Both the position numbers and the translations under genes were made by a program. Under the pieces are notes generated by a model, which was given only the letters and a program-made list of their open reading frames with translations, did not search any database and was not told the DNA's origin. A stretch of DNA of 64,000 bases, taken from positions 1,426,001-1,490,000 of the forward strand of contig NZ_AP022593.1 in the NCBI RefSeq assembly GCF_010731815.2, read 5' to 3'. Origin of the DNA: Mycolicibacterium arabiense (lineage in GTDB: Bacteria > Actinomycetota > Actinomycetes > Mycobacteriales > Mycobacteriaceae). Position 1 is the stretch's first letter. Every line of letters starts with the position of its first letter. Below, piece after piece: positions 41,356 to 54,404 of this stretch.

Positions 41356-42513
41356 CTACCGCACGTCGGCCCCCGTGCGCCGAGCCAACTGCCACCGGCC
41401 CTGGTGGCGCGTCACCAGGCCGGCGAGTTCGAGGGTCGCCAGCGGGCCAAGGAGCTGCGTGGCGGGAACACCGGCGGCTTCGGCGAGCTGGTCGACGGTC
41501 CTGGCGGCGCGCGCGGGAAACGCCTCGTAGGCCCGCCGCTCGGCGTCGCTCAACACGTCGAGCGGTGTCGTCGGATGCTCCGGTTCGGACTCGAATTCGC
41601 CCATTCGACCGACGTATTCGACGAGGTCGGCTGCACGGGTCACGAGGTTGGCGCCGTCGCGCAGCAGTACGTGGCAGCCGGCCGACGCAGCCGACGTCAC
41701 CGGACCGGGCACCGCGCAGACGGGCCGCCCCAGTGCCTTGGCCCACGCCGCCGTGCTCGCGGCACCGCTGCGCAGCCCGGCCTCCACGACGACCGTTGCG
41801 CCGCTGCACGCGGCGACCAGGCGGTTGCGCGCAAGGAATCGGTGGCGCGCCGGTCGTACGCCGGGTGGGTACTCGGTCAGCAGGAGACCCTGCTCACCGA
41901 TCCGACGCAGCATCGTCTCGTGACCCTTCGGATAGAACACGTCGATGCCTCCGGCCAGCACCGCGGCCGTGAGCCCCTCACACGCCAGAGTGGTGCGGTG
42001 TGCGACGCCGTCGATGCCGTAGGCGCCGCCCGACACGACGGCGACGTCCCGCTCGACGAGCCCTGCGGCGAAGTCGGAGGCGACGTGTTCGCCGTACGCG
42101 CTGGCGGCACGGGTGCCGACGACTGCGCAGGCCCGTTCGGTCACGTCGACGAGCCGTTCGGGACCGATCGCCCACAGCACCATCGGTGGCTGGGTCTGCG
42201 CCCGTGGACGTCCCGTCGCGCCGTGGAAGGCCCCGAAAGCGAGGTGCGGCCACTCCGCGCACCCCGGTGTCAGCAACCGTCCACCGCATCGTGCGAGCAA
42301 GTCCAAATCCTCGTCGGCGCAGTCCATCTCGCGACGCGCCGCGGTGAGTGACAGCAGGCCGTCCTCGACGTCACCCCGTCGGACCAGATCTGCCGCCTCG
42401 ATCGGACCGACGTCGGCCACTAGATCGGCCAAGTCGGCGCACGGCGGCTCGGCAACGCGTGACAGGTACGCCCAGGCCCGCGCTTCCTCCTGGATCAGTT
42501 CGCCGCCGGTCAT
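41356..42513 (-). CDS. dprA: DNA-processing protein A
   Basis: A 385-aa protein that loads RecA on incoming single-stranded DNA during natural transformation. The Rossmann (SMF) domain holds CAVVGTRAASAYGEHVASD, GGAYGIDGVAH and ARNRLVAACSGATVVVEAGL. A C-terminal winged-helix domain follows (residues about 320-380). The ATG overlaps the TGA of the separated yifB 3' part (ATGA), as in intact mycobacterial yraN-yifB-dprA operons. Because the element lies upstream, dprA is now cut off from the yifB promoter. Confidence 0.93.
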   Translation of the reverse strand: MTGGELIQEEARAWAYLSRVAEPPCADLADLVADVGPIEAADLVRRGDVEDGLLSLTAARREMDCADEDLDLLARCGGRLLTPGCAEWPHLAFGAFHGATGRPRAQTQPPMVLWAIGPERLVDVTERACAVVGTRAASAYGEHVASDFAAGLVERDVAVVSGGAYGIDGVAHRTTLACEGLTAAVLAGGIDVFYPKGHETMLRRIGEQGLLLTEYPPGVRPARHRFLARNRLVAACSGATVVVEAGLRSGAASTAAWAKALGRPVCAVPGPVTSAASAGCHVLLRDGANLVTRAADLVEYVGRMGEFESEPEHPTTPLDVLSDAERRAYEAFPARAARTVDQLAEAAGVPATQLLGPLATLELAGLVTRHQGRWQLARRTGADVR

Positions 42514-42605
42514 CGCGTCGACCCCGCGCCGCGGAAGCTGAGCGCCGTGGTGACCTCGTCCAGCCCCGGCGAGGTCAGACCGCCCAGGTCGGCCAGCGTC
42601 CACGC
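42510..42605 (-). pseudogene. yifB: yifB/comM 3' fragment (last 30 codons) beyond attR
   Basis: Reading from the GCGTG core, the frame gives WTLADLGGLTSPGLDEV then TTALSFRGAGSTR and a stop. This is the conserved C terminus of the magnesium-chelatase-like ATPase YifB. Joined to the 474-codon 5' part beyond the other element end it makes one 504-aa protein in frame. The stop overlaps the dprA start. Confidence 0.92.
42601..42605 (-). other. attR core of the satellite
   Basis: Minus-strand context GTACGCGGTGGCGTGGACG. To the right of the core (in gene sense) is yifB; to the left is element DNA, the left arm of attP. Confidence 0.75.
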
Positions 42606-42632
42606 CACCGCGTACACGCGCTGATCGCAGAG

Positions 42633-43433
42633 CTAGGGCACTCCAATGTGGCGCGGCAAACGTCGCGCCGACGACCTTAGGCTCAGGTTGTGCGGGACAA
42701 CGATGCAATTGACTCCGAACTGAGGTTGGTCGCGGCGGTACGCCGAACCTGCGCGGAGATGGGCGGCGGCATGCCGTCGACCGCCGTGCTCGACGGACTG
42801 CTGGACGAGCGCAACGCCGGCAGCCGCGTCATTGTGAGCGCCGGGATCGACGGCCGGCCAGCCGCCGGCGAACACTGAACACCACACGCCGCGCCTGAGC
42901 CGGTAGAGCTTGAATCCACGCAAGACCAGCGGCCCAGCGCCAGCCTCAAACTCGCGGACAAGCGGCCGGCCTTCAGTGACGATCCGAGTAAGGGTGCGCC
43001 GCTCATCATCGATCGACGTCGGAGCCGGATTTCTTAGCAACTGTAGAAACGTGTACATCTTGAACTCGGCGGCTGTCAGAGCTGCGGCCATCTCGAAGTC
43101 AGGGATGACCATCTGAGCGGCTTTCAGGGACCGATCGAGTCGCCCCGTCGCGGCGCTAACGCGATCGCTTGCTGCTGGCCCGATGGCGGACTGATCGACT
43201 CGGCCGTCGAGATAGCCGGCGATGTTGTCGAGGAACATGTTGACCTCGGTCAGCCACGTCACCGTCTGCTCGTTTAGGTCGATGACGGCCGACTGCCGGA
43301 GTTGTCGGCGACCGGCGCGGGTGCTCGACCGAGCGACCCACAAAGTCACCCCCACGGCTACGAAGGCGGCGATCGTCGGCCAGTCCCACTCATGAACGGC
43401 CTGCACTGCGAAGTTCCACAGATGATCGAGCAT
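42633..43433 (-). CDS. Membrane-anchored cargo protein A (unknown function)
   Basis: Up to 266 residues. One N-terminal hydrophobic helix (TIAAFVAVGVTLWVARSS) is followed by a basic stop-transfer and a mostly helical cytoplasmic part (WLTEVNMFLDNIAGYLDGRV, then LRNPAPTSIDDERRTL). I do not recognise the family. The last 75 or so residues look unlike protein and lie opposite the plus-strand small gene, so the true 3' end may be altered. It shares its architecture (one helix, then an alpha-helical domain with repeated acidic/basic segments) with the next gene. It is the gene nearest attR, the usual place for cargo. Confidence 0.55.
   Translation of the reverse strand: MLDHLWNFAVQAVHEWDWPTIAAFVAVGVTLWVARSSTRAGRRQLRQSAVIDLNEQTVTWLTEVNMFLDNIAGYLDGRVDQSAIGPAASDRVSAATGRLDRSLKAAQMVIPDFEMAAALTAAEFKMYTFLQLLRNPAPTSIDDERRTLTRIVTEGRPLVREFEAGAGPLVLRGFKLYRLRRGVWCSVFAGGWPAVDPGAHNDAAAGVALVQQSVEHGGRRHAAAHLRAGSAYRRDQPQFGVNCIVVPHNLSLRSSARRLPRHIGVP
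42690..42878 (+). CDS. Small protein beside attR, probably leaderless (unknown)
   Basis: A 62-aa frame starting GTG: RDNDAIDSELRLVAAVRRTC then a short helix (STAVLDGLLDERNAG). Composition is that of a soluble helical protein, unlike the antisense frame. TAGGCT, a good -10, ends six bases before the GTG, so the transcript would begin at the start codon. It is the only plus-strand gene of the element. Function unknown; a regulator or antitoxin-sized partner of cargo protein A are both possible. Confidence 0.5.
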   Translation: MRDNDAIDSELRLVAAVRRTCAEMGGGMPSTAVLDGLLDERNAGSRVIVSAGIDGRPAAGEH

Positions 43434-43503
43434 GATGCGATTGAACAGCAGCGGATTCGGCCATGGCGCTCAACGTCGCCGCGACCATGCTGTGGCGAAG
43501 TTT

Positions 43504-44142
43504 CTAGGTGTTTGGCTCGGCCGGCGGTTTCGGGTTCCGCGTGCGGAGTTGGTCAGCTAGCTGTCTCTGCGCTGCCTGCCGGCGTCGCTTATTCCGACGC
43601 GTCTCGGCAGGGGTTATCCGATCGTTCGCCGTCCGCACAAGCGCGGTCATCGCGACGCGTAGCTGTCCGGCTTGTGCTTCGAGTTCCGCATTCAATTCCT
43701 CGATCCTGTCGATGCTGGAAGCGACCGTTTCGTCGTTGAGTAAGGCGTAGAACTGCTCGAACTCGGCCGCGGCGGCAACCATGGCTTGCCAGCACTGCGC
43801 GTCGACAACGGTGAGACTGCCAACCTCTAGAGCGCCGCGCAGGTTCAGCATTGCGACAGCGTGCGCGCGTTCCACTTCGCGGATCTCGGCGTGCATCGCT
43901 TGCAGGGTTTCGGCATTTTGTTGCCGTGTCGCCTCAAGGAGTTCTGCCAGCGCGCGGCGCCAGTTGAATCCGCGCAGCTGAAGCTCGTGGCCGGCGGCGA
44001 TGATTTCGCCGATCGCGTGCCGTTGGGGGGCTCGGTAAGCGTCAACGACTCGACGTTGCTCGCGCGCCCAGTTCAGACCGAAAGTCACGATGCCGCCGAG
44101 CGCGCCGCTTCCGACGTACGGCAGAACCTGTGTCCATGCCAT
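43504..44142 (-). CDS. Membrane-anchored cargo protein B (unknown function)
   Basis: A 212-aa protein: hydrophobic helix near the N terminus (VLPYVGSGALGGIVTFGLNW), then a long predicted helical/coiled region with many heptad-like Leu/Ala positions (LLEATRQQNAETLQAMHAEI) and a very basic C-terminal end. Family not recognised. The ATG overlaps the stop of the upstream 78-aa gene (TGATG). Same layout as cargo protein A, suggesting a pair that forms an envelope-anchored complex (inference). Confidence 0.7.
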   Translation of the reverse strand: MAWTQVLPYVGSGALGGIVTFGLNWAREQRRVVDAYRAPQRHAIGEIIAAGHELQLRGFNWRRALAELLEATRQQNAETLQAMHAEIREVERAHAVAMLNLRGALEVGSLTVVDAQCWQAMVAAAAEFEQFYALLNDETVASSIDRIEELNAELEAQAGQLRVAMTALVRTANDRITPAETRRNKRRRQAAQRQLADQLRTRNPKPPAEPNT

Positions 44143-44378
44143 CAGCGTTCTTGTCGGTAGCGCTGCATCGCAGGCCCGGTGTCGATCCGAACGCGCAGCA
44201 TCCGCTCGTACCCGCGCATCCACAACATTGCCAGGGTCAGCGATCGGCCGGCATAGGGGTTGGGGTCACCTGGTTCGGCCAGTGATCCCTCGTAGAGCGC
44301 GTAGGTGTACTCCGCCCGCCTGGACACCAGCCAAGCATGCAGGGGCGCGCAGGCGAATCGTCGGACCCACGCCGACAA
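44142..44378 (-). CDS. Hypothetical protein downstream of terminase
   Basis: 78 aa, TTG start 10 bases beyond the terminase stop. Contains WMRGYERMLRVRID and a Tyr-rich middle (AEYTYALYEGSLAEPGDP). No motif known to me. Coupled to membrane protein B by an overlapping stop/start, so it belongs to the same cargo unit or is a small packaging accessory. Confidence 0.55.
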   Translation of the reverse strand: MSAWVRRFACAPLHAWLVSRRAEYTYALYEGSLAEPGDPNPYAGRSLTLAMLWMRGYERMLRVRIDTGPAMQRYRQER

Positions 44379-44388
44379 CGGGCGGCGA

Positions 44389-45795
44389 TTACAAGAGGAT
44401 CACCTCGCGTGTCCCCGACCCGCCACCCAGTGGCCGGGCTGGCCTGACACAGTCGACACCCCACAGCGCCAGCGACGCCGCGATCAGCACCGAGGATCCT
44501 GGGGCCTTGCGATCCCATCCGAAGGCTTGGCTGCTGAGCATCGGGCGCTGCTTGGCGCCTAGCACAGCCCGAGTCAACTCAACCTGACCGCGGTGGACCA
44601 TGGTGCCGTCGGTGACCGCATCAGAGAAGATGCCGGCGGCGATCGCGACCTCCCGGTGACCGACCAACGTCGGCCGGACCCGCGCCGCCCGCCAGTCAAG
44701 TTCGCTCAATGCGCCCCGCTCATCCACTACGACAGCGCGCACCTTCGCCCCGAGATGCGCCGCCACCCAGCCGGGCATCCACGTCACACCGGGCTGGGTC
44801 ACGTACCACTCGACGTGTAGCCGGCCATCAGCACGCCGGCCCGCGACGCACACCGTGGCAGTGTCCCTCGACGGTGCGGCGTCCACCCCGATCGCCACGT
44901 CGGTCACCGGCACCGACGCCGGATCCTTCAGCGTCTCCCACGCGACCGCATCGAAGACCTGGTCGCCGCCACCATGCGGAACCCACATCGACAACCGCTC
45001 GGCCCGGAAGGTGTCCGGCGGCAGGACCGCGCGGTCATCGACGATCGCCTGGATCGGGACGCGGCCCGTGGCGACCGCAGGGTTCACCCTCACCCAAACG
45101 TGGCGATCGTCGATGTCGTCGCCATACTCAGCCGACCACTCAGCCCAGCCGAGACGCGGGTTCAACCCGTTGTGCGCGGACTTTCGAAGCGTCACGAAAA
45201 CCTCGGAGTCGTGCCACGGGCCCGGCGCCGTCCCGAAGAACAACGACTGGCTGCGCGGGCGTGAGAACACCGTTGGCTGAAGCGCGGCGACCTCCGCGGC
45301 CGGCAAGTCCTCTGCCTCGTCGATCACCAACCGGTCGATCGCCAGGCTGCGGCCGGTCGACGCCGAGCGGGTCGAGAACGCGATCCGGGCGCCGGTGTCG
45401 AGTTCCACGTACTCGGCGCCGATCATCTGCGAGTGCCGGCGCACCCGGCGTACGAGATCCTGGTCGGACTGAATCACCGACCACAACCGGCGGAACGCAT
45501 CCGAGGACGCCTTCACGTTGTGCGCGGTGTGCAAGATCTGCTCGCCGAGCTCGAAGAGCCCGAACAGCTCCAGCGCGAGCAGGATCTCACCCTTTCCGTT
45601 CTGGCGACCGACGACCAAACCGGCCTGCGAACACACCCACCCTCCACCAGACTCCCGGAGGATGGCGCGCACGATGCCCTGCTGCCAATGGTCCAAGGTG
45701 ACGCCGTACCCGGCAGCAAGGTCGACGCAGTCTTGCCCCGTCGCCTCGTCGCCATCGGGCCACGTCTCGAAGGTTGGCGACGTCGTGCTCGTCAC
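44389..45795 (-). CDS. Phage terminase large subunit
   Basis: A 468-aa packaging motor. ATPase half: Walker A-like VGRQNGKGE, Walker B LVIDEAEDL and the coupling motif LFFGTAPGP. Nuclease half of RNase H type: IGVDAAPSRDTATVCVAG gives the first catalytic aspartate; later acidic positions are in AVVVDERGAL and AIAAGIFSDAVTDG. Length and both halves are complete, so it may be active. GTG start overlapping the small subunit stop (GTGA). A complete large terminase without portal or capsid genes is the most unusual part of this element. Confidence 0.9.
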   Translation of the reverse strand: MTSTTSPTFETWPDGDEATGQDCVDLAAGYGVTLDHWQQGIVRAILRESGGGWVCSQAGLVVGRQNGKGEILLALELFGLFELGEQILHTAHNVKASSDAFRRLWSVIQSDQDLVRRVRRHSQMIGAEYVELDTGARIAFSTRSASTGRSLAIDRLVIDEAEDLPAAEVAALQPTVFSRPRSQSLFFGTAPGPWHDSEVFVTLRKSAHNGLNPRLGWAEWSAEYGDDIDDRHVWVRVNPAVATGRVPIQAIVDDRAVLPPDTFRAERLSMWVPHGGGDQVFDAVAWETLKDPASVPVTDVAIGVDAAPSRDTATVCVAGRRADGRLHVEWYVTQPGVTWMPGWVAAHLGAKVRAVVVDERGALSELDWRAARVRPTLVGHREVAIAAGIFSDAVTDGTMVHRGQVELTRAVLGAKQRPMLSSQAFGWDRKAPGSSVLIAASLALWGVDCVRPARPLGGGSGTREVILL

Positions 45796-46067
45796 GCGCC
45801 GCGCTTTCGGCGACGAGCAGCAATCTCGTCCAGCGTGGACGCCGTACCGGATTTCGGTGCGCCGGCCTTCGGTGCCGGCGCTGTCTTGGCCAGCTCAGCC
45901 ACTACGATCCGGTACTCGCGGGACGCCGCGACGACGTCACGCGGCGTCGTCTTGGGATCGTTCACGATCGCCTCCAGGCGGGTGCGCAGCAGCTCCAGGC
46001 GGCCCCGATCGGTGCTCGGCCGGCGCCTCCTGGTGGGCTTAGCCGGCGCCTTCTTTGCTGGGGTCAC
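45792..46067 (-). CDS. Putative terminase small subunit
   Basis: A 91-aa very basic protein: a Lys/Pro/Ala-rich start (AKKAPAKPTRRRRPS), then a helical segment RLELLRTRLEAIVNDPKTTP and DVVAASREYRIVVAELAK. Size, charge, position before and overlap with the large subunit fit a DNA-recognising small terminase of actinophage type. GGAGG seven bases before the GTG start. No stronger motif is visible. Confidence 0.75.
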   Translation of the reverse strand: MTPAKKAPAKPTRRRRPSTDRGRLELLRTRLEAIVNDPKTTPRDVVAASREYRIVVAELAKTAPAPKAGAPKSGTASTLDEIAARRRKRGA

Positions 46068-46164
46068 AAGGGGCCTCCAGATATATCCCTATGCCGGAGG
46101 GGGTCGCGTGGCAGGGCGTCGAGGGGCGACCCCCCGTGGTCCTGTTGGTGCTGGTGGGGGTGGG

Positions 46165-46452
46165 TCATCCGAGTGTCCCGCTGTTGCGACCGACTGTGCC
46201 GTCGGGTTGGTTGCCGCGGCGTTCGTTGCACTGTTTGTGTGCTGGCCTGAGCTGGTTGTCGCCGTGGTCGTGGCCGCCGTGGCTGGTGGGGGTGTGGTGG
46301 TCGACGACGAAGGACCAGGGGTCGGGCCATGGCACGGTGAGGTCGACGGGCGCGGCGCAGAAGCAGCATGGCTCACCGGCTCGGACGCGTTGGGCGACGC
46401 GTCGTCGCGCTTGGTCGCGTATCGCTTTAGTCGCGAACGGGATTGGGATCAC
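46165..46452 (-). CDS. HNH endonuclease
   Basis: A 95-aa nuclease. Zinc cysteines: PCCFCAAPV and HKQCNERRGN. The HNH core is VVDHHTPTSHGG then DNQLRPAHKQCN. GTG start. HNH genes next to terminases are common in HK97-like phages, where the nuclease works with the terminase in cos cleavage, which supports cos-type packaging here. Confidence 0.9.
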   Translation of the reverse strand: MIPIPFATKAIRDQARRRVAQRVRAGEPCCFCAAPVDLTVPWPDPWSFVVDHHTPTSHGGHDHGDNQLRPAHKQCNERRGNQPDGTVGRNSGTLG

Positions 46453-46492
46453 CCTGCCTTTCTTCGTTGGTAGGCGGCGCTGGGTGTGGGGG

Positions 46493-46750
46493 CTACCAAG
46501 TGCGGGTGGTGACGAAGGTGGTGCCGGCGGGTGGGTCGGCTTCGGCTACTGCCTCGGCCAGGTGGTGGGCGACGTGGGCCTGGGCGTCGCGGTGGGTGGC
46601 GTTGGCGATGAGCCCGCAGGTACAGCCCCATGCGCCGCGGCCGGGGACTGTGCCGTTGACGTGGCAGCGCTCGTCGAAGGCCGGGGCGTGCTCATGAAGC
46701 GCGGTGAGGATGCGCTGCTCGGTGACCGCGTCGTCGGGGGTGGTGTTCAC
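46493..46750 (-). CDS. Small Cys/His protein (unknown)
   Basis: 85 aa from GTG with GAGGA eight bases upstream. A Cys/His set (FDERCHVNG, WGCTCGLIANATHRDAQ, HVAHH) suggests a small zinc-binding fold. Composition is like minor actinophage proteins. Not assigned to a family. Confidence 0.6.
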   Translation of the reverse strand: MNTTPDDAVTEQRILTALHEHAPAFDERCHVNGTVPGRGAWGCTCGLIANATHRDAQAHVAHHLAEAVAEADPPAGTTFVTTRTW

Positions 46751-46835
46751 GTTGTGGGTCCTCGTCGTCAACTGGTGAGTGGTGGGGCCTGACGGCCGGC
46801 ACGCCAGGAAGGTGGCCCGCGCCGGCCGCCAGGGG

Positions 46836-47618
46836 CTACCAGGTGCGCGCAACGGCGTCGTCACGCCGAATCTTCTCGGCCTGTTCGGCGGCGAGCCGGT
46901 CAACCTCGAAGGTTGCCGTGCGCTCCCGGTACTCGACGAGGGTTGGCAGTTGCAGGGGAACACCGTGCTCCACCAGGATCTGGGGGCTGATTTCGGCGCC
47001 CGAGGTGCGGGCCGCCTCGGCCGCCAAGGCGAACTGTGCGGCCGGCGCTGCTGTGTAGACGAGGGCAAGGTGACCGGTTCGGGCGACGCGGGCGACCATC
47101 GCGAAAGCGTCGAAGCCCTGCACTGCCGCCATCCAGGCGCTGGTTGCGAGCTGCACGGCATGGGCGTGGTGCATCACTTCTCCGCCTTGGCGGATCACGT
47201 CGGCAGCGATCAAGTCCTGACCGGGGAACGCCTTAGTCGCGGCGACCAACGCCGCGGTGTGGGGTTCGAGAGCCTCGGCCCAATCTTCGAGGATGAGATC
47301 CGCGTAGTCGACAAGCAGGGCCCGAAGGTCGCTGTCCGCGCGGGCGCGCGCCGTCGACTCGATACCCGATGCCGCGATCTGCTGGCCCACGAGGTGGCGG
47401 AGGACCAGGGGGTCGGTGGTGTGGTCGCGGCCAGCGGAGATGGCGTCGAGGACGGCGTGGTGCAGCGCAACCGGCGTCGATCGGTAGATCGTGGCGACGA
47501 CGGCGGCGACCTCCTCGGCATGGGCAAGCGCGTCGAGATAGTCGGCCGGCAGTTCGACGTCGAGTTTCTTCGCGGATCGGGCGATCGTCAGCGCGGTAGA
47601 GGCGGCACTTATCTGCAT
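46836..47618 (-). CDS. Conserved-looking alpha-helical protein (unknown)
   Basis: A 260-aa, Ala-rich, almost wholly helical protein; AAGG-type ribosome site (AAGGA) eight bases before the ATG. N terminus: SAASTALTIARSAKKLDVEL. No enzymatic motif. In tailed phages proteins of this sort before the packaging genes may be scaffold or capsid-size modifiers; there is no capsid gene here, so a helper-capsid interacting role is only speculation. Confidence 0.65.
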   Translation of the reverse strand: MQISAASTALTIARSAKKLDVELPADYLDALAHAEEVAAVVATIYRSTPVALHHAVLDAISAGRDHTTDPLVLRHLVGQQIAASGIESTARARADSDLRALLVDYADLILEDWAEALEPHTAALVAATKAFPGQDLIAADVIRQGGEVMHHAHAVQLATSAWMAAVQGFDAFAMVARVARTGHLALVYTAAPAAQFALAAEAARTSGAEISPQILVEHGVPLQLPTLVEYRERTATFEVDRLAAEQAEKIRRDDAVARTW

Positions 47619-47633
47619 GTCTTGGTCCTTGTC

Positions 47634-47861
47634 TCAGTTGGTGGGTGGAGTGGTGCGGCCGATTGTGCGGCCGGCTTTCAGGCCCGCGAGCACGGCGTCG
47701 GCACCGTTGTCGGCGAACAGTTCTCGAGCCCAAGCACGTTCGGCGTCGGTGAATTCGGGGTCGGTGTCCGGCTCGTTGCGAGCGTCGGCGTCGGCGTCGG
47801 TGTCTTCGGGGTCGCTGAAGAGTCGCTTCGCGAACTTCTTTCCAGCGTCGTCGTTGGCCAT
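47634..47861 (-). CDS. Small acidic protein (unknown)
   Basis: 75 aa. A basic start (KKFAKRLFSD), an Asp/Glu-rich middle (DPEDTDADADARNEPDTDPE) and a C-terminal helix (AERAWARELFADNG). It lies 16 bp before the 260-aa gene and is probably co-transcribed. Highly charged, possibly disordered. Function unknown. Confidence 0.6.
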   Translation of the reverse strand: MANDDAGKKFAKRLFSDPEDTDADADARNEPDTDPEFTDAERAWARELFADNGADAVLAGLKAGRTIGRTTPPTN

Positions 47862-47873
47862 GAATGATCCGTT

Positions 47874-48170
47874 CTACTCGGGGAAGATCCAGCGTCCGCC
47901 GACAAGTTGTCCGCCGGCGGTCGCAGCTCTGTTTCTGACGGTCCTTGGCGTGCATTTCCATTCGGAGGCAAGCTGTTTGGTCGTCTTCCACCGTGCCAGA
48001 TCGACTGGTTCTGGCTTTCCCCATGCGGAAAGCTCCCTGTTCAGAACGTCGCGCAAATCGCGCAGAGAGGACGGGACGGGGACGCCGAATCGCTGGCGCC
48101 GAAGGATCTCCTCATGGGCCAGGCGGGCGGCTCGACCAATGTGTTCGCGGCTCAACCCGTGCCCGGTCAT
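47874..48170 (-). CDS. MerR-like/HTH_17 DNA-binding protein
   Basis: 98 aa. The C-terminal half has a winged helix-turn-helix of excisionase type: TTKQLASEWKCTPRTVRNRA followed by the wing GGQLVGGRWIFPE. The N-terminal half is a basic helix (IGRAARLAHEEILRRQRFG). ATG overlaps the whiB stop (ATGA). It may regulate the late (packaging) genes just downstream. Confidence 0.75.
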   Translation of the reverse strand: MTGHGLSREHIGRAARLAHEEILRRQRFGVPVPSSLRDLRDVLNRELSAWGKPEPVDLARWKTTKQLASEWKCTPRTVRNRAATAGGQLVGGRWIFPE

Positions 48171-48499
48171 AACGCCCCGGGCAAGCCGAGTGTGGCCGCT
48201 GTTGCGATCTTTGACGGCGCCCCGGCGGTTGTGAGCACCAGGCCCGCAACGACGCCTGTCGGTCGATGCGCCACCGGCAGGGCGTCGAGCCAAATTCTGC
48301 ACGGGCCGAGCGTCGGGCAGCGGCGGCAGAGCCGCAGGGCCTCACGGCGGGCGTCGTGGACTTCGGTCTTGCTGAGCCGGCCGGCCGCGTGCTGCCCGGC
48401 GTCAGTCCGATCGAAGAGATCCGATCGGCCACGGCACGCGGCGCCGTCGAGGTCGGGGATGGTTTCCAGCAGCGCGCTCATCGATTCCCAGTTGCTCAT
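48167..48499 (-). CDS. WhiB-family iron-sulfur regulator
   Basis: 110 aa. The four cluster cysteines are in the canonical order: first in DGAACRGR, then C-x2-C-x5-C in LRLCRRCPTLGPC. The following turn reads PTGVVAGL where host WhiBs have GVWGG, a departure seen in phage-borne members. WhiB proteins exist only in actinobacteria and their phages; phage WhiBs such as WhiBTM4 interfere with host WhiB2 and block superinfection. Overlaps both neighbours by ATGA. Confidence 0.92.
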   Translation of the reverse strand: MSNWESMSALLETIPDLDGAACRGRSDLFDRTDAGQHAAGRLSKTEVHDARREALRLCRRCPTLGPCRIWLDALPVAHRPTGVVAGLVLTTAGAPSKIATAATLGLPGAL

Positions 48500-48888
48500 C
48501 GCAGCCGCACTAGGTAGGCCCGAAGTTCTTGTGTGGCAGGGTCGGTCGTCACTTCGAAGAAACCGCTCGACCGGCCAAAGGCGTCGTCCCCCAGATTGGT
48601 CACCGACGAGTCCGGTTGCTCGGCGGCGGGGTCTGGATGCCAGACGTGGTGCGCGGTCCCGCTTCCTGCGGGGGCGATGTCGACTGTCGTTTCGACGAGG
48701 CGCCCATCGGAGTAATGCTCGTCGTCGAAGCGGCGTTCCCCGTCCCCGAGCTGCGCGGCCAGGTCGAGGATAAGGCGCTGCGCCTGGGTATCAAACTCAC
48801 TTGTGCCCGCTTTGAGCAGGGCGACGGCGTATTTCAGAGCGTCGTCGGCCCGAACGGGGGTCGCGTTGCTTCGATCTTGGTTCGGCAT
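48496..48888 (-). CDS. Hypothetical protein of the satellite early operon
   Basis: 130 aa with a helical N-terminal half (ALKYAVALLKAGTSEFDTQA) and a beta-rich C-terminal half (GRLVETTVDIAPAG, FFEVTTDPATQELRAYLVRL). Start overlaps the previous stop (TAATG) and its stop overlaps whiB. Family unknown. Confidence 0.65.
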   Translation of the reverse strand: MPNQDRSNATPVRADDALKYAVALLKAGTSEFDTQAQRLILDLAAQLGDGERRFDDEHYSDGRLVETTVDIAPAGSGTAHHVWHPDPAAEQPDSSVTNLGDDAFGRSSGFFEVTTDPATQELRAYLVRLR

Positions 48889-49109
48889 TAGGGCGACTCC
48901 TGGGCGTCAGTGGGTGGGTGGATCGGCTCGGTGAGGTCTCGAATGACGGGCGGTGTGGGCGGCACGCCATGGGTGCATCGCCGAGCCGGGTCGACCGGGG
49001 TGCCATCGGGTCCGTGTCGCCATCCGTTGGGATCGCATTGTCGGCACCGGCGGATCGCGGACGCGCGTTCCTCATGGGCGGCTTTCTCGATGGCGCGACG
49101 TCGGCTCAC
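48888..49109 (-). CDS. Small putative zinc-binding protein
   Basis: 73 aa; the motif CRQCDPNGW followed by ARRCTHG resembles the CRHCDPW...DCPHH end of the replication protein before it. Such C-x2-C-D-x-x-G-W modules are frequent in actinophage small proteins. GTG start overlapping the upstream stop (GTGA). Confidence 0.65.
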   Translation of the reverse strand: MSRRRAIEKAAHEERASAIRRCRQCDPNGWRHGPDGTPVDPARRCTHGVPPTPPVIRDLTEPIHPPTDAQESP

Positions 49110-49963
49110 GCGGATTGCCTCGTTCGGAAGTTCTCGTGGTGCGGGCAGTCAGTGAGGTCGTCGAGACGAGCCCACGGATCGCAGTGCCGGCATGAGTCGA
49201 TTGCGTCGCGGATCTGGCCGCGTCGTTCGGCCTCGCGTTCCTCGGCTGTCTGGGCGGATGCCTCGGCAGCTTCGCGGGCCTCCTTGCATCCGTAGCACCC
49301 CGGCGCGGTCTCGTCGTGAATGTGCTTGGCGCACCGGGGGTGATAGGTCGGTTTGCCGTTGGCTGGTAGCGAGGATGAGGGGGGCGGGACGGCGGCCTGG
49401 CGCGAGCCGGCCGCTTCTCCCCCTGTAGGAGTCCCTGTTGAAGTACCTGTAGGGGGTCGTTCGCGCAGGTCAGATGCCACAATCTCGGACGCTGGCGTCA
49501 GGGGTTTCGGACGCTGGCGTCCTGGGTTTCGGACGCTGGCGTCCTGGGTTTCTGCTAAACCCGTACCGCTAGCGTCGTGGGTTTCGGCAGTTATCCACAG
49601 GCCAGGATCGGCCAAACCCCCGACGGTACTGTCCGGGGTTTGGCGCGAAACCCCGGACGCTGGCGTCGGGGGTTTACGTAGATCGAAAGACCTTCGTGCG
49701 GTCACACCGCGACCACCGCCGGACCGTCCCGTCTCCGCTAGATAGCCAAGATTCACCAACCGTCCAAGGGCGTCAGTCAGCCGCCTGCGGGACAGGCCGC
49801 CAGGAAGCGCCGCTGAGAGCGCGTCAAGATCCACCGCCCACCCTGAGCCGTCGGAGCGGGTGTACGTGACGCCGATGACCACGGCGAGTCGAAGATCCTT
49901 ATCGGTCAGAGCAGCGTCGGAGTGAAGCGCCTTGAGCCACCCGAACTTGTCGAATCCGGTCAT
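49106..49963 (-). CDS. Replication-initiator-like HTH protein with internal repeats
   Basis: 285 aa. The N-terminal winged helix is typical of phage and prophage replication proteins: FGWLKALHSDAALTDKDLRL, then SAALPGGLSRRRLTDALGRL. A flexible middle (about residues 95-200) is encoded by the 22-bp DNA repeats, and a Cys/His C terminus (SCRHCDPW, DCPHHENF) may bind zinc. Layout (DNA-binding head, origin inside the gene, protein-binding tail) is that of lambda O-type initiators. ATG overlaps the stop of a 43-codon frame. Confidence 0.7.
   Translation of the reverse strand: MTGFDKFGWLKALHSDAALTDKDLRLAVVIGVTYTRSDGSGWAVDLDALSAALPGGLSRRRLTDALGRLVNLGYLAETGRSGGGRGVTARRSFDLRKPPTPASGVSRQTPDSTVGGLADPGLWITAETHDASGTGLAETQDASVRNPGRQRPKPLTPASEIVASDLRERPPTGTSTGTPTGGEAAGSRQAAVPPPSSSLPANGKPTYHPRCAKHIHDETAPGCYGCKEAREAAEASAQTAEEREAERRGQIRDAIDSCRHCDPWARLDDLTDCPHHENFRTRQSA
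49486..49667. other. Candidate replication origin: 22-bp iterons and DnaA box inside the replication gene
   Basis: CGGACGCTGGCGTC begins at 49,486, 49,508, 49,530 (exact 22-bp period) and again at 49,654; a degenerate CCGCTAGCGTC ends at 49,576. Each contains the small palindrome GACGC-TG-GCGTC and most are followed by GGGTTT. Between the last two lies TTATCCACA (49,591-49,599), a perfect DnaA box. Confidence 0.65.
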
Positions 49964-50091
49964 CGCTCACCTGCCCACGGACCGGACACATGATTGCCCC
50001 GATCGTCGGCGCTACTCCGCGGGAACGGTTCTCCGGACCGCGACTGACGGAGGAACGGCGCAGGGCTATATGTGGGGGCTGTCGTAGCCAT
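49960..50091 (-). CDS. Possible 43-aa leader peptide/small protein before the replication gene
   Basis: ATTAPTYSPAPFLRQSRSGE then a polar tail, ending in ATGA overlap with the replication gene start. Pro/Ser-rich. It could serve translational coupling alone. No ribosome site is clear, so it is a weak call. Confidence 0.35.
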   Translation of the reverse strand: MATTAPTYSPAPFLRQSRSGEPFPRSSADDRGNHVSGPWAGER

Positions 50092-50360
50092 TAGGGGATC
50101 ACTCCGCAGCGTTGATGGGTACCCCGAAGGGACCCCGCTGCCGGGATGGGCTGGGCCTGCCTGGACGTCCGGGCTTACTGTCCGCGATGCGGATGGCCGG
50201 ACGCCACTCCCTGGCTTCCCACCGCAAGCGCCAAGGGGCGCCGCGGGTGATTCGTTTCTACCACCGACTGCCGACAGCGGGTGATGCCACGCGGTTCGAC
50301 ACCGGACGATCACGACCGTCGTGACAACGACCATCGCGACGATCGACCGAGCCCGTTCGC
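50092..50360. other. Intergenic region of the element (269 bp)
   Basis: No convincing gene in either strand. It holds an inverted repeat GGGTACCCC-gaa-GGGACCCC near 50,120 and Asp-like GACGA/TCGTC clusters around 50,310-50,350. It is the only sizeable gap between the integrase-Xis unit and the replication unit, so an early promoter and operator probably lie here. Confidence 0.4.
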
Positions 50361-50576
50361 TCACTGGCCCGGAAGGGGTACGTCCTCGGCGACGCACTCA
50401 ATGATGGCGCGATATCTGCGCTGGCCGCGGCCGAGGCGATCGGTCACGACGATGGAGAGGACATCGCCTTCTGCGCTCACGGAGGCGCGAGAGTCCCAGC
50501 CGTCGGTCTGCTCAATGGGAAACGCTTCGCTCGCTCCCGCGAGGCGTGCCGCGATCTGGTGCGCTTCGGTGGTCAT
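50361..50576 (-). CDS. Small hypothetical protein (71 aa)
   Basis: TTEAHQIAARLAGASEAFPI followed by a beta-rich end (DVLSIVVTDRLGRGQRRYRA). Start overlaps the stop of the 48-aa gene (ATGA). Third in a chain of four coupled small genes behind the integrase. Function unknown. Confidence 0.6.
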   Translation of the reverse strand: MTTEAHQIAARLAGASEAFPIEQTDGWDSRASVSAEGDVLSIVVTDRLGRGQRRYRAIIECVAEDVPLPGQ

Positions 50577-50719
50577 GAGGCCGCGCCGCCGCTTCGAAGG
50601 ATCGCGGCGATTCGATCGCGGACCGCGTCGGTAAGCGGTGGCGCCTTTGCGACCACTTCGCGTACCGCGTCGGAGTACTCGGGCGGCACAGGGCACGGTG
50701 ATGACGTGGGCGCGGTCAT
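50573..50719 (-). CDS. Very small coupled gene (48 aa)
   Basis: Starts ATG and reads TAPTSSPCPVPPEYSDAV, REVVAKAPPLTDAVRDRIAA, ILRSGGAAS. Both ends overlap neighbours by ATGA: the Xis stop at its start and the 71-aa gene start at its end, which is strong support for translation. The helix PPLTDAVRDRIAAIL is a type often seen in mycobacterial prophage small proteins. Role unknown. Confidence 0.65.
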   Translation of the reverse strand: MTAPTSSPCPVPPEYSDAVREVVAKAPPLTDAVRDRIAAILRSGGAAS

Positions 50720-50931
50720 GGCGTAGCCGTGGGGACGATCAGCGCTTCGACGTCCGCGAGGTCGATCAGTAGGCGCCTAGGGCCGACGCGGTAGGCGGGT
50801 AGCCGGCCCTCAGCGATCCATCGGCGGACGGTGTTCGGGTGTACACGGAAGAACTTGGCAGCAGCGCTGGGAGTTACCCCGCGTTCTAGCGTGGGCGCCA
50901 GTTCGGATTGCGGCGACGCGGTGTCGTCCAT
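50716..50931 (-). CDS. Excisionase-like HTH protein (Xis)
   Basis: 71 aa. Winged helix of the MerR/Xis type: LERGVTPSAAAKFFRVHPNT, VRRWIAEGRLPAYRVGPRRL. By analogy to phiRv1 (Rv1584c) it would be the recombination directionality factor that turns the serine integrase to excision. Start ATG (MDDTASPQSE). The 165 bp before it shows no gene and may hold its promoter. Confidence 0.8.
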   Translation of the reverse strand: MDDTASPQSELAPTLERGVTPSAAAKFFRVHPNTVRRWIAEGRLPAYRVGPRRLLIDLADVEALIVPTATP

Positions 50932-51096
50932 TGCAGAGGCTCTCTCGGAAGTAGGTGGGCGTGAGTCATCACGCCTCTCGTTCCGAGGCCCAGCCGGGTG
51001 ATCGCCATCCGGTTCTGCTGCAACACACGTTAACACCACGTCGCACCGGAGCGCACGCAACTCACACGGGGCGGGCGTCAGCGCTTCGCCCACAAC

Positions 51097-51519
51097 CTAC
51101 CGGTGGTTGCCGTTCATTCCGGCGAGCGATATACCCGAAATACCCTGTGCAACAATGCCATTGAGGCGGTCTCGGAGTTTAGCTTCGCCGTGCCACGGCG
51201 CTTTGAGGCCGCACTCTCGGCAGCGCAGCTCGTACCGCCGGCCCACCGGTGTCGAACGCTCTAGCGCCTCGGCCTGCCGACCCAAGTCCAGCCCCCACAG
51301 GGGGATTACCGACCCGTCGGCGGCCAGGTGTTGCTCAGACTTGCGATGCGCAGCCATCGGAAACCACTGCCACACTGCGGCGTCATCGCGGGTGAACTCG
51401 CCCAGCACCACGACGTCGTCCGGAAGATGGTCTGCGGCATCCGGGTCCACCACCAACGGCCCGAACGGCGTGCTGTGCGATTCCGCGTCGCAGTACACGA
51501 CCAACACCACGTCGGTCAT
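51097..51519 (-). CDS. Hypothetical protein next to integrase
   Basis: 140 aa. Beta-rich N-terminal half (TDVVLVVYCDAESHSTPFGP), acidic middle, and a possible zinc ribbon end (ELRCRECGLKAPWHGEAKL). The ATG overlaps the integrase stop (ATGA). Same position as the hypothetical between integrase and Xis in phiRv1. Function unknown. Confidence 0.7.
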   Translation of the reverse strand: MTDVVLVVYCDAESHSTPFGPLVVDPDAADHLPDDVVVLGEFTRDDAAVWQWFPMAAHRKSEQHLAADGSVIPLWGLDLGRQAEALERSTPVGRRYELRCRECGLKAPWHGEAKLRDRLNGIVAQGISGISLAGMNGNHR

Positions 51520-52943
51520 GCGCAGATATTCCCGTCGCGGTCCGCCGCCGCGTCGTTCCAGCGAATCTCGACGGTTTCGGGCCGGAAGGTTCGCGTCCCG
51601 CGGCCCGGAAGGTGAAGCACTGGTGTCATCAGCGCCGCGATGATCCCGCGGCGCTGAGCCGTCGACAGGGTCGCCCAGACCGTCTCGACGTCGTCGGCCG
51701 CCACGATCGCGAGGGGCGACGTCGAACCGGCCGCGGCGATCCGCGCCTGGACGTCGCCAAGTCGCGCCGTCACGCGGTCATTCATCGTGCGCCAGCGGAT
51801 CCGGTCGATGAGCCCGTCGGTGCGGTCCTGATCGATGCCGTCGAGTTCGTGCCGAAGGTCGTCGGCCTCGGCCATCAGCGCCGCGGCATCGGGCAGCTCG
51901 GCAGTCCACAGCTTGCCGGCGTCCGGTCGTGTCAGGCGCGCAATCACCACCTCGGAGACGTACTGGTCCACCGGCTCGGACTTGCGCGCCACGTGGGCGC
52001 CTCCGCTGCACCGGTACGTCGGCACGCCGGCGTGCGCTCCACCGCCGCGATGCACGGTCTGCTCGCACACTCCGCAGATCGCCAGCCCCGTCAGCAGCCC
52101 CTTACCGCCGTAGGCCGGCTTGTAGCGCCCCGGGTCGCACAGCACGCGAACCGCGGCGCGCCACGTCGACTCGTCCACGATTGCCGGCCACTCCGCAGCG
52201 CCAGTGATGCCCAGCTCGGGGTTCTTTCTGATCGACGCCCGGTCTTCAGCGGCACGATGGCGCCGAAGACCCGCATACCGTGGATTGGTCAGCACGTCCT
52301 TCACGGCGTGGCGACGCCACTCGGTCCCCTGCGTCGTGATCGAGCCGGTCGCGGCCCACCGACGGGCCACCTCGCTGATGTTCTCGCCCGCCAGCACATC
52401 GGCGTAACCCTGCTTGACGAGAACCGCTTCGCCTTCGCGCACGGTGACTCCGTCGGCCTCGTACCCGAACGCCCGCCGGCCACCGACCCACCGTCCCTGC
52501 TTTGCGGCCTGAAGCACCGCGGACCGCTGGCGCGCGCTCTTTCGTTCGACTTCACCCTGCGCCACCGACGAGAGAATGCGAGCCACTAGACGCCCGCCGT
52601 CGCTTGACGTGTCCACGCCATCGGCTGCGGTCACGATCGCGGCACCGGCCTTCTGGCAGCGTTCGAGCACGGACTCAAGCTCGGCGAGCCGCCGCAGCAG
52701 CCGGTCTATGTGACGGGCCGCGATGACGTCGAACTCCCCCGCGTCAACTCGGCTCATCATCTCCGCGAACGCCGGCCGGGGCTTGCGACTGAGAGCCGAC
52801 ACGTCATTGTCGACAAACTCCGCTGCGACCGTCCAGCCTTGCGCCGCAACAAGTTTCATCGTGTCTTCGCGTTGGCGGTCGATGCCGTAGCCGGTGCCGT
52901 CACGGTCCTGTGACTGGCGGAGATAGATGGCGACTCGCTTCAT
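51516..52943 (-). CDS. int: Large serine recombinase (integrase)
   Basis: 475 aa from MKRVAIYLRQSQD. The catalytic serine is in YLRQSQDRDG; resolvase domain to about residue 150 with ARHIDRLLRR and LVARILSSVAQGEVERKSAR. Recombinase domain: RAFGYEADGVTVREGEA, then VLTNPRYAGLRRHR. Zinc ribbon: CGVCEQTVHRGGG...TYRCSGG. Coiled-coil motif around residue 370-400. No ribosome site precedes the ATG. TAGCAT lies seven bases upstream, a good leaderless -10. The frame is open through the att site into yifB, so a 962-residue YifB-integrase fusion can also be made. Confidence 0.94.
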   Translation of the reverse strand: MKRVAIYLRQSQDRDGTGYGIDRQREDTMKLVAAQGWTVAAEFVDNDVSALSRKPRPAFAEMMSRVDAGEFDVIAARHIDRLLRRLAELESVLERCQKAGAAIVTAADGVDTSSDGGRLVARILSSVAQGEVERKSARQRSAVLQAAKQGRWVGGRRAFGYEADGVTVREGEAVLVKQGYADVLAGENISEVARRWAATGSITTQGTEWRRHAVKDVLTNPRYAGLRRHRAAEDRASIRKNPELGITGAAEWPAIVDESTWRAAVRVLCDPGRYKPAYGGKGLLTGLAICGVCEQTVHRGGGAHAGVPTYRCSGGAHVARKSEPVDQYVSEVVIARLTRPDAGKLWTAELPDAAALMAEADDLRHELDGIDQDRTDGLIDRIRWRTMNDRVTARLGDVQARIAAAGSTSPLAIVAADDVETVWATLSTAQRRGIIAALMTPVLHLPGRGTRTFRPETVEIRWNDAAADRDGNICA

Positions 52944-52980
52944 GGGATCGATGCTAGGCGACATCTGCCAATTTGGTACG

Positions 52981-52985
52981 CACGC
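52981..52985 (-). other. attL core of the satellite
   Basis: Minus-strand context AGGGTCGCGTGCGTACC. Host yifB sequence is to the left in gene sense, element DNA to the right. Confidence 0.75.
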
Positions 52986-54404
52986 GACCCTCAGTGTTCT
53001 GTCGAGGCCTCGCACGCTCAACGCGCCGCGATCGAGCGCGCTGCTCAACGGCGCCATCGCCGCCCGCGACGGTCGATATCGCCGCCGCAGCAGGGACCCG
53101 CCCACCTCGGCATTGGTGTGGAAGCCGTGCTCGGCCCACCGTTCGGCCGCGGCGGCTCGCGCGGCCGCCACCCTGGCGCGCACCTTCAGCGTCGACTCCC
53201 CCGTCGCCTCCGCGGCGATGGCACCGGACTTGATCGGGTGCATCTCGACGCGCAGGTCGACGCGATCGAGCAGCGGGCCCGAGAGCTTGCCCAAGTACCG
53301 GCGTTTGATCGCACCCGGGCACACGCAGTCCTGCGGGTCGGCGGGCGCGCACGGGCAGAGGTTGGCCGCCATCACCAGTTGGAAGCGCGCCGGATAACGG
53401 GCGACGCCGTCGCGGCGCGCCAGCCGGATCTCGCCGTCCTCGAGCGGGGTGCGCAGCGCTTCGAGCACGCTGGTTCCGATCTCCGCGCACTCGTCGAGGA
53501 ACAGCACGCCGCGGTGGGCTCGGCTGACCGCTCCCGGGCGGGCCATCCCCGATCCGCCGCCGACCATCGCCGCGACCGACGAGGTGTGGTGCGGCGCGAC
53601 GAACGGCGGGCGGGTGATCAGCGGCGCGTCACCCGAGAGCAGACCCGCCACCGAGTGGATCGCCGTCACCTCCAGCGATTCATCGGGCGACAGCTCGGGC
53701 AGCAGCCCCGGAAGTCGTTGCGCCAGCATGGTCTTCCCGATCCCGGGCGGACCGGTGAGCAGCAGGTGATGAGCGCCGGCGGCGGCCAGTTCCACGGCGA
53801 AACGGGCGGTGGTCTGACCGACCACCTCGGCCAGATCGGCCACCACGTCGGGCGCATAGGGCGGGGCCTCGATGCGTCCCTCCAGATCGCTCTTGCCCTC
53901 CACCCACTCCTGCAGATGGCGCAACGTGCGCGCCCCGAACACCTCGATCCCCTCGACGAGACTGGCCTCGGCCAGGTTGTCGAACGGGACCACCACTGCA
54001 GGCACGCCCTCGCGCTTGGCCGCCAGCACCGCGGGCAGCACCCCGTGCACCGGACGCACCCGCCCGTCGAGCGCCAACTCGCCCAACAGCACCGTCTTCT
54101 CCAGCCGCGGCCACGACGCCTTTCCCGCCGCCGAGAGCACCGCCAAAGCCAACGCGATGTCATAAAGCGACCCCGTCTTGGGCAACGTCGCCGGCGACAG
54201 CGCCAACGTCAGACGCGCCATCGGCCAGGTGTTGCCGCAATTGGTCACCGCCGCACGGACTCTGTCGCGCGACTCCTGCAGCGCCGCATCCCCCAACCCG
54301 ACCAGGTGCACCCCCGGCAGACCCGAGGTGATGTCGGCCTCGATCTCGACCAGATGCCCCTCGAGCCCGCGCACGGCCACCGAGAACGCCCGACCCAGCG
54401 CCAT
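52983..54404 (-). pseudogene. yifB: yifB/comM 5' part (474 codons), interrupted by the satellite
   Basis: YifB is an MCM/Mg-chelatase-like AAA+ ATPase; its ComM relatives drive branch migration in natural transformation. Present here: N-terminal lon-like domain (ALGRAFSVAVRGLEGHLVEI), Walker A TGPPGIGKTML, Walker B GVLFLDECAEIG, the Cys-rich insert NLCPCAPADPQDCVCPG and the C-terminal helices up to GLDRTLRVA. Only the last 30 residues are displaced. The catalytic ATPase remains intact but is fused to element sequence. ATG overlaps the yraN stop (TGATG). Confidence 0.93.

Follow-up and report, generated by a model that had tools for sequence, protein, structure and literature searches.

A candidate phage satellite of Mycolicibacterium arabiense that encodes a DNA-packaging motor and no detected capsid or portal

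Known phage satellites either borrow the large terminase subunit (TerL) of their helper phage or bring a packaging motor together with a capsid and a portal. According to the relevant passages of PMC10690885, capsid-forming phage-inducible chromosomal islands (cf-PICIs) encode an HNH endonuclease, the small terminase subunit (TerS), and TerL plus a major capsid protein, protease, portal, and connectors, and some other PICIs bring TerS only or use the helper terminase at their own cos. Candidate Mycobacterium PICIs were listed in a 2023 prophage survey as integrated elements, some with terminase genes; by the definition used there, candidates had to carry an integrase and a major capsid gene (PMC10654092), so an element without a capsid gene would not have been counted. 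Here we describe a 10,385-bp element inserted in comM of Mycolicibacterium arabiense, at positions 42601 to 52985 of a 64,000-nucleotide stretch of contig NZ_AP022593.1 ("the window"), both copies of a 5-bp attachment (att) core included. It carries packaging genes of its own, and no capsid or portal gene was found among its scanned open reading frames (ORFs).

The packaging genes and a cos-like site lie side by side on the minus strand:

46165 to 46452, minus strand: HNH endonuclease (phrog_338, E = 2e-20; PF01844 above cut-off)
46077 to 46095, minus strand: candidate cos, GGCATAGGGATATATCTGG, whose 3′ part doubles as the terS ribosome-binding site
45792 to 46067, minus strand: TerS (phrog_1459, E = 6.6e-6)
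44389 to 45795, minus strand: TerL, 468 amino acids (aa), with ATPase and nuclease-fold domains (phrog_9, E = 3e-51; structure model with a predicted local distance difference test score [pLDDT] of 87)

Pfam was searched with 18 ORFs and the fused comM-integrase ORF, and PHROGs with 17 ORFs and the integrase; mechanically called ORFs in other frames and ORFs shorter than about 70 aa lay outside both scans. An earlier note, made from the DNA alone, had read this unit as carrying HNH, TerS-like, and complete TerL genes without a portal, protease, capsid, or tail gene, and the scans agreed: none of these virion families was matched, nor were connectors found. The TerL model contains the two terminase domains and, among PDB structures, resembled the HK97 large terminase (6z6d) most closely. 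The earlier note had named a mutated, inactive TerL as a ground for rejecting its reading. We found the gene open and full length, with intact ATPase motifs in the alignment, and the ratio of nonsynonymous to synonymous substitution rates (dN/dS) was 0.16 to 0.21 against the six nearest relatives and 0.26 to 0.32 against the rest. Purifying selection acts on TerL over the full length of the protein.

The element belongs to a family. Thirteen distinct elements with a complete TerL of this clade could be read as DNA, namely, the window element, L003 to L009, L041, L042, L067, L068, and the IMG/VR record G198; the TerLs of the relatives are 55 to 80% identical to that of the window. Complete clade members, the window's own included, occurred in 6 of 198 genomes of a genus sample, 5 of 397 of an order sample, and 2 of 394 of a class sample (the genome of the window and a second genome from its genus). 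Matching records from phages (1,810) and plasmids (9) contained no TerL that reached 60% identity. By gene order, no portal follows TerL in any of the 13 elements, and among 36 larger proteins scanned from the 12 relatives (not every gene), no portal, capsid, or protease was found; a tape measure protein had the one remaining head-type match, which was weak (phrog_2810, E = 5.6e-4). Within this scope, none of the 12 relatives carries portal and capsid genes at this spot; by the earlier note, their presence would have marked the element as a deletion remnant. As a control, the gene adjacent to TerL, often past one small ORF, was a portal in all 11 scanned regions with TerLs of 25 to 40% identity; at L043 and L044 (TerLs 35 to 36% identical), no portal was visible either. 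Integrases vary among the elements, with serine integrases in several and tyrosine integrases in L004, L005, and L006. Because its ends overlap exactly over 127 nucleotides, G198 (15,189 bp) is read as a closed circular molecule, although a tandem array would look alike. In L068, hnh and the tape measure gene are both split by transposase genes or insertion elements, and this relative is decaying.

Further TerLs were seen as proteins or fragments. In a TerL protein search, the 120 of 284 proteins listed, read as protein sequences, had 65 to 100% identity and lengths of 437 to 501 aa. For 10 of these 120, the longest contig measured 9.8 to 10.9 kb, close to the size of the window element, and such contigs may be complete circles. 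L010, L012, and L025 hold C-terminal TerL fragments of about 80 to 100 aa (64 to 73% identical) without the rest of the gene.

The gap between hnh and terS aligned in all 13 elements over a motif centered on GGCATA (11 of 13; GGCTTA in L008 and GTCATA in L009), which continues with TCTGG or CCTGG and overlaps the terS ribosome-binding site. By shuffling, the full cos pattern was expected zero times in the window; the octamer GGCATAGG by itself has one further occurrence there. The site was compared with the genome ends of cluster K mycobacteriophages. Their genomes have 10- or 11-base 3′ extensions (PMC3203893). The TM4 record starts with CTCGCGGCATAGG and ends with CTCGCGGCAT, its HNH gene is last, and terS and terL lie near its left end; five other cluster K records that we looked at start at AGGC. 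Joining the TM4 ends would give the order hnh-cos-terS-terL met in the window, and the cohesive end contains GGCATAGG. L007 and L067 match the TM4 end at 12 of 13 bases. When the 13-mer of the TM4 end was searched in each locus, the hnh-terS site was the best match in 5 of the 13 loci and not in the other 8. All 13 elements keep hnh, the cos-like site, terS, and terL in one module (with the split hnh copy in L068). In G198 (L011, L056), the break point of the circular contig falls about 165 bases ahead of the cos-like site, which may be chance.

TerL itself appears to have been rebuilt in part of the family. Relative to the window TerL, those of L007, L008, L009, and L042 are 73 to 76% identical in the ATPase domain and 28 to 32% in the C domain. 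With L007 and L009 as references, nine viral TerLs showed the reverse, 25 to 37% in the ATPase domain and 50 to 65% in the C domain; against TM4, the four gave 55 to 63% for C domains and 28 to 30% for ATPase domains. In trees, the ATPase domains of all 13 elements group together (98/100), and the C domains of these four are placed with those of phages (100/98) and separated from the C domains of the other nine (100/99). As judged from these alignments and trees, the four TerLs join a satellite ATPase domain to a phage-type C domain. Their C domains do not firmly form one group (69/5), so that the exchange may have happened more than once; some of the branches are long.

We read the C-domain exchange in this four-member branch as a refit to the portal of a helper. 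In lambda, the TerL C terminus contacts the portal (passages of PMC4856287). When 20 portal-bearing TerLs were compared in 190 pairs, similarity of the portals correlated with the C domain at a Spearman coefficient of 0.58 versus 0.29 with the ATPase domain. The portals were unalignable in all 14 pairs most alike in the ATPase domain relative to the C domain and alignable in 10 of the 14 pairs most alike in the C domain relative to the ATPase domain (two over short parts only). Because of these correlations and the exceptions among the C-biased pairs, the C domain is linked to the portal, though not strictly.

Half of the 12 relatives carry one tail gene each. In L007, L008, and L042, this is a minor tail protein of ~590 aa, about 59 to 60% identical to Cheetobro gp24 over its length; in G198, L067, and L068, it is a tape measure protein. 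No tail gene was found among the scanned proteins of the window element or the other six relatives. According to PMC12987554, PLEs of Vibrio cholerae use a tape measure protein that they encode themselves to make chimeric tails, and putative tape measure proteins have been reported in cf-PICIs, so a satellite-borne tail gene is known in kind; some relatives share this PLE feature, which was not found in the window element itself.

Comparison with described systems leaves the element between classes. It is integrated, has an integrase and a replication gene, and lacks a full set of virion genes, as is general for phage satellites. Like canonical PICIs and Staphylococcus aureus pathogenicity islands, it is small and integrated, carries regulators, and would need helper heads and tails; unlike them, it also encodes a complete TerL and an HNH protein and is thus not a TerS-only element. 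Its own HNH, TerS, and TerL are those of a cf-PICI in kind (compare the gene set in PMC10690885), so that it corresponds to the packaging half of such an island; the capsid half was not found among the ORFs scanned. Cluster K phages (TM4, Cheetobro) share the order hnh-cos-terS-terL at the joined ends (TM4), a cohesive end with GGCATAGG, and a C domain like that of the four chimeric relatives, but they are full phages with portal and capsid, and the window TerL is only about 29 to 31% identical to theirs in both domains. We class the element as a phage satellite with a new type of packaging, neither cf-PICI nor TerS-only PICI. No description of a motor-only satellite was found in the parts of the open-licence PubMed Central literature consulted (bioRxiv not covered).

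The earlier note had proposed that the element packages itself with its own motor through the portal of a helper procapsid, and the chimeric TerLs of four relatives, the cos-like site, and the circular relative all support this proposal. On present sequence comparisons, the element is probably a phage satellite that has a cos of its own, cleaves its DNA there, and pumps this DNA in through the portal of a helper; loading into helper-made shells is probable because it has its own packing machine and packing site but no shell. After helper entry, the element would excise and replicate; HNH, TerS, and TerL would cut the concatemers of the element at the satellite's cos; and the TerL ring would dock on the portal of a helper procapsid and pump in satellite DNA, the helper providing head and tail. 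Some relatives would in addition swap one helper tail part for a tape measure or minor tail protein that they encode themselves. Whether the family forms a satellite class with a modular motor (its own ATPase, TerS, HNH, and cos, no shell or portal, and a change of helper by exchange of the TerL C domain plus one tail gene at need) is, in our judgment, an even call.

Several observations weigh against packaging through a helper portal. A 10-kb genome misfits a 40- to 60-kb head, unless small heads or tandem copies are made. Part of the cos-like motif is a ribosome-binding site, and the window's own site is not among the five that best match the TM4 end. Portals were unalignable in 4 of the 14 most C-biased pairs despite similar C domains. 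No helper could be named from the phage matches listed, which share no more than about 36% identity with the C domain of the window TerL. Finally, of the catalytic acidic residues expected in the nuclease domain of TerL, the third was unseen in all 13 clade members; it is likewise missing in some portal-bearing TerLs in the alignment.

Other explanations fit these data less well. TerS, TerL, and HNH might instead jam or divert helper packaging, with the helper terminase moving the element. In outline, satellites directed against the packaging of a helper are known, and a cos-like site resembling that of TM4 could be cut by a helper terminase; however, a TerL with both domains open and selected along its length, and the retention of the whole module in every element, make this unlikely. 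It is quite improbable that the capsid comes from another satellite and not from a phage. The same genome does hold, outside the window, an island of ~9 kb (G000:C2:818254-827302; L051, L052) that resembles a capsid-forming satellite, its genes including those for a tyrosine integrase, TerL, portal, scaffold, HK97-type capsid, and connector, but this pairing was seen in one genome only, and since the island TerL is only 25% identical to that of the window, the island portal is no evident match. We give just as little weight to an integrative element whose terminase genes have no packaging role and which spreads by other means, for instance like a plasmid: the nuclease residue not visible in TerL would suit it, but the conserved cos-like site, the tail genes in six relatives, and the phage-type C-domain exchange make sense only with virions. 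Hardly credible is a prophage remnant that lost portal, capsid, and tail, for although the genes are phage packaging genes and L068 is decaying, the same architecture recurs in 13 elements with at least two integrase classes and one apparent closed circle, TerL is under purifying selection, none of the 1,810 matched phage records has a TerL of at least 60% identity, and by gene order none of these 13 has a portal after TerL, as all 11 scanned regions with more distant TerLs do.

The ends of the element and the genes on its integrase side were mapped as follows:

52981 to 54404, minus strand: N-terminal part of the host gene comM (Mg-chelatase-like), fused in frame to the integrase (PF01078, Mg_chelatase, E = 4e-82 in the fused ORF; start from gene call)
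52981 to 52985, minus strand: N-side copy of the att core (GCGTG), at the junction with comM
51516 to 52943, minus strand: large serine integrase, 475 aa (phrog_95, E = 2e-96; PF00239, PF07508)
51097 to 51519, minus strand: orf140, without Pfam or PHROG match
50716 to 51093, minus strand: Xis-like helix-turn-helix (HTH) protein (gene call; start possibly 50931; HTH_17, E = 3e-11; phrog_66, E = 5e-8)
50361 to 50696, minus strand: orf111, with a 40% relative in L004
42601 to 42605, minus strand: C-side copy of the att core (GCGTG), at the junction with comM
42510 to 42605, minus strand: C-terminal remnant of host comM, last ~30 codons (translation)

The comM reading frame can be followed from 54404 down to the core and from there, without a change of frame, into the serine integrase. 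Of 12 same-genus loci compared, 10 have an intact comM across the insertion point; the other two gave no blastn match. The arms beside the cores, GTACGC and GCGTAC, are inverted, a feature of many serine-integrase attP sites. The sharp ends claimed in the earlier note were recovered at identical coordinates from the cores and the comM frame, and its integrase, Xis-like, replication, and HNH proteins have Pfam or PHROG family matches. The unit has the content given there, with about 18 genes rather than 20 proteins. On the minus strand, these run in the order integrase, orf140, Xis-like HTH, orf111, rep, orf73, orf130, WhiB-like, HTH-like, and orf75, followed by orf260, orf85, HNH, TerS, TerL, a ribosome modulation factor (RMF)-like gene, and two accessory genes. 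The remaining features are as follows:

49106 to 49963, minus strand: replication initiation protein (phrog_3171, E = 4.9e-8; 54% to L005)
49481 to 49675, no strand assigned: candidate origin, six ~27-nucleotide repeats within rep
48888 to 49109, minus strand: orf73 (phrog_2447, E = 1e-7; relatives in L005, L041)
48496 to 48888, minus strand: orf130 (phrog_21001, E = 1e-20; relative in L041)
48167 to 48499, minus strand: possible WhiB-like protein, weak match (relatives in eight loci)
47874 to 48302, minus strand: HTH-like orf142, start possibly ~48170 (relative in L041; no family match)
47634 to 47861, minus strand: orf75 (relatives in L003, L041)
46836 to 47618, minus strand: orf260, all-helical, upstream of hnh (relatives in L003, L004, L005, L041; model pLDDT 87)
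46493 to 46750, minus strand: orf85 (gene call; no PHROG match)
44142 to 44378, minus strand: RMF-like protein (PF04957, E = 8e-9)
43504 to 44142, minus strand: orf212, accessory (gene call; a longer 239-aa form has no Pfam or PHROG match)
42633 to 43433, minus strand: orf266, accessory (phrog_31065, E = 1e-14; 30% relative in L011)

The rep gene of L005 contains a comparable, similarly spaced set, which makes the repeats a candidate origin. The WhiB protein named in the earlier note stood up only weakly, with PF02467 below its cut-off (20.0 versus 23.6 bits) and phrog_472 at E = 1.3e-4. Fold comparison of the orf260 model gave no clear match. The RMF-like gene lies directly behind TerL, and a counterpart follows TerL in L003, L004, L005, and L041. 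In L003, the accessory gene after TerL (L003:11661-12518) encodes a Toll/interleukin-1 receptor (TIR)-domain protein of the CAP12/Pycsar-effector type (PF10137, E = 5.5e-36), likely defense cargo.

Surveys based on capsid genes would overlook motor-only satellites. If such satellites exist as proposed here, the choice and pumping of DNA would be separated from the shell, and the natural TerL chimeras of this family would make terminase-portal specificity testable.
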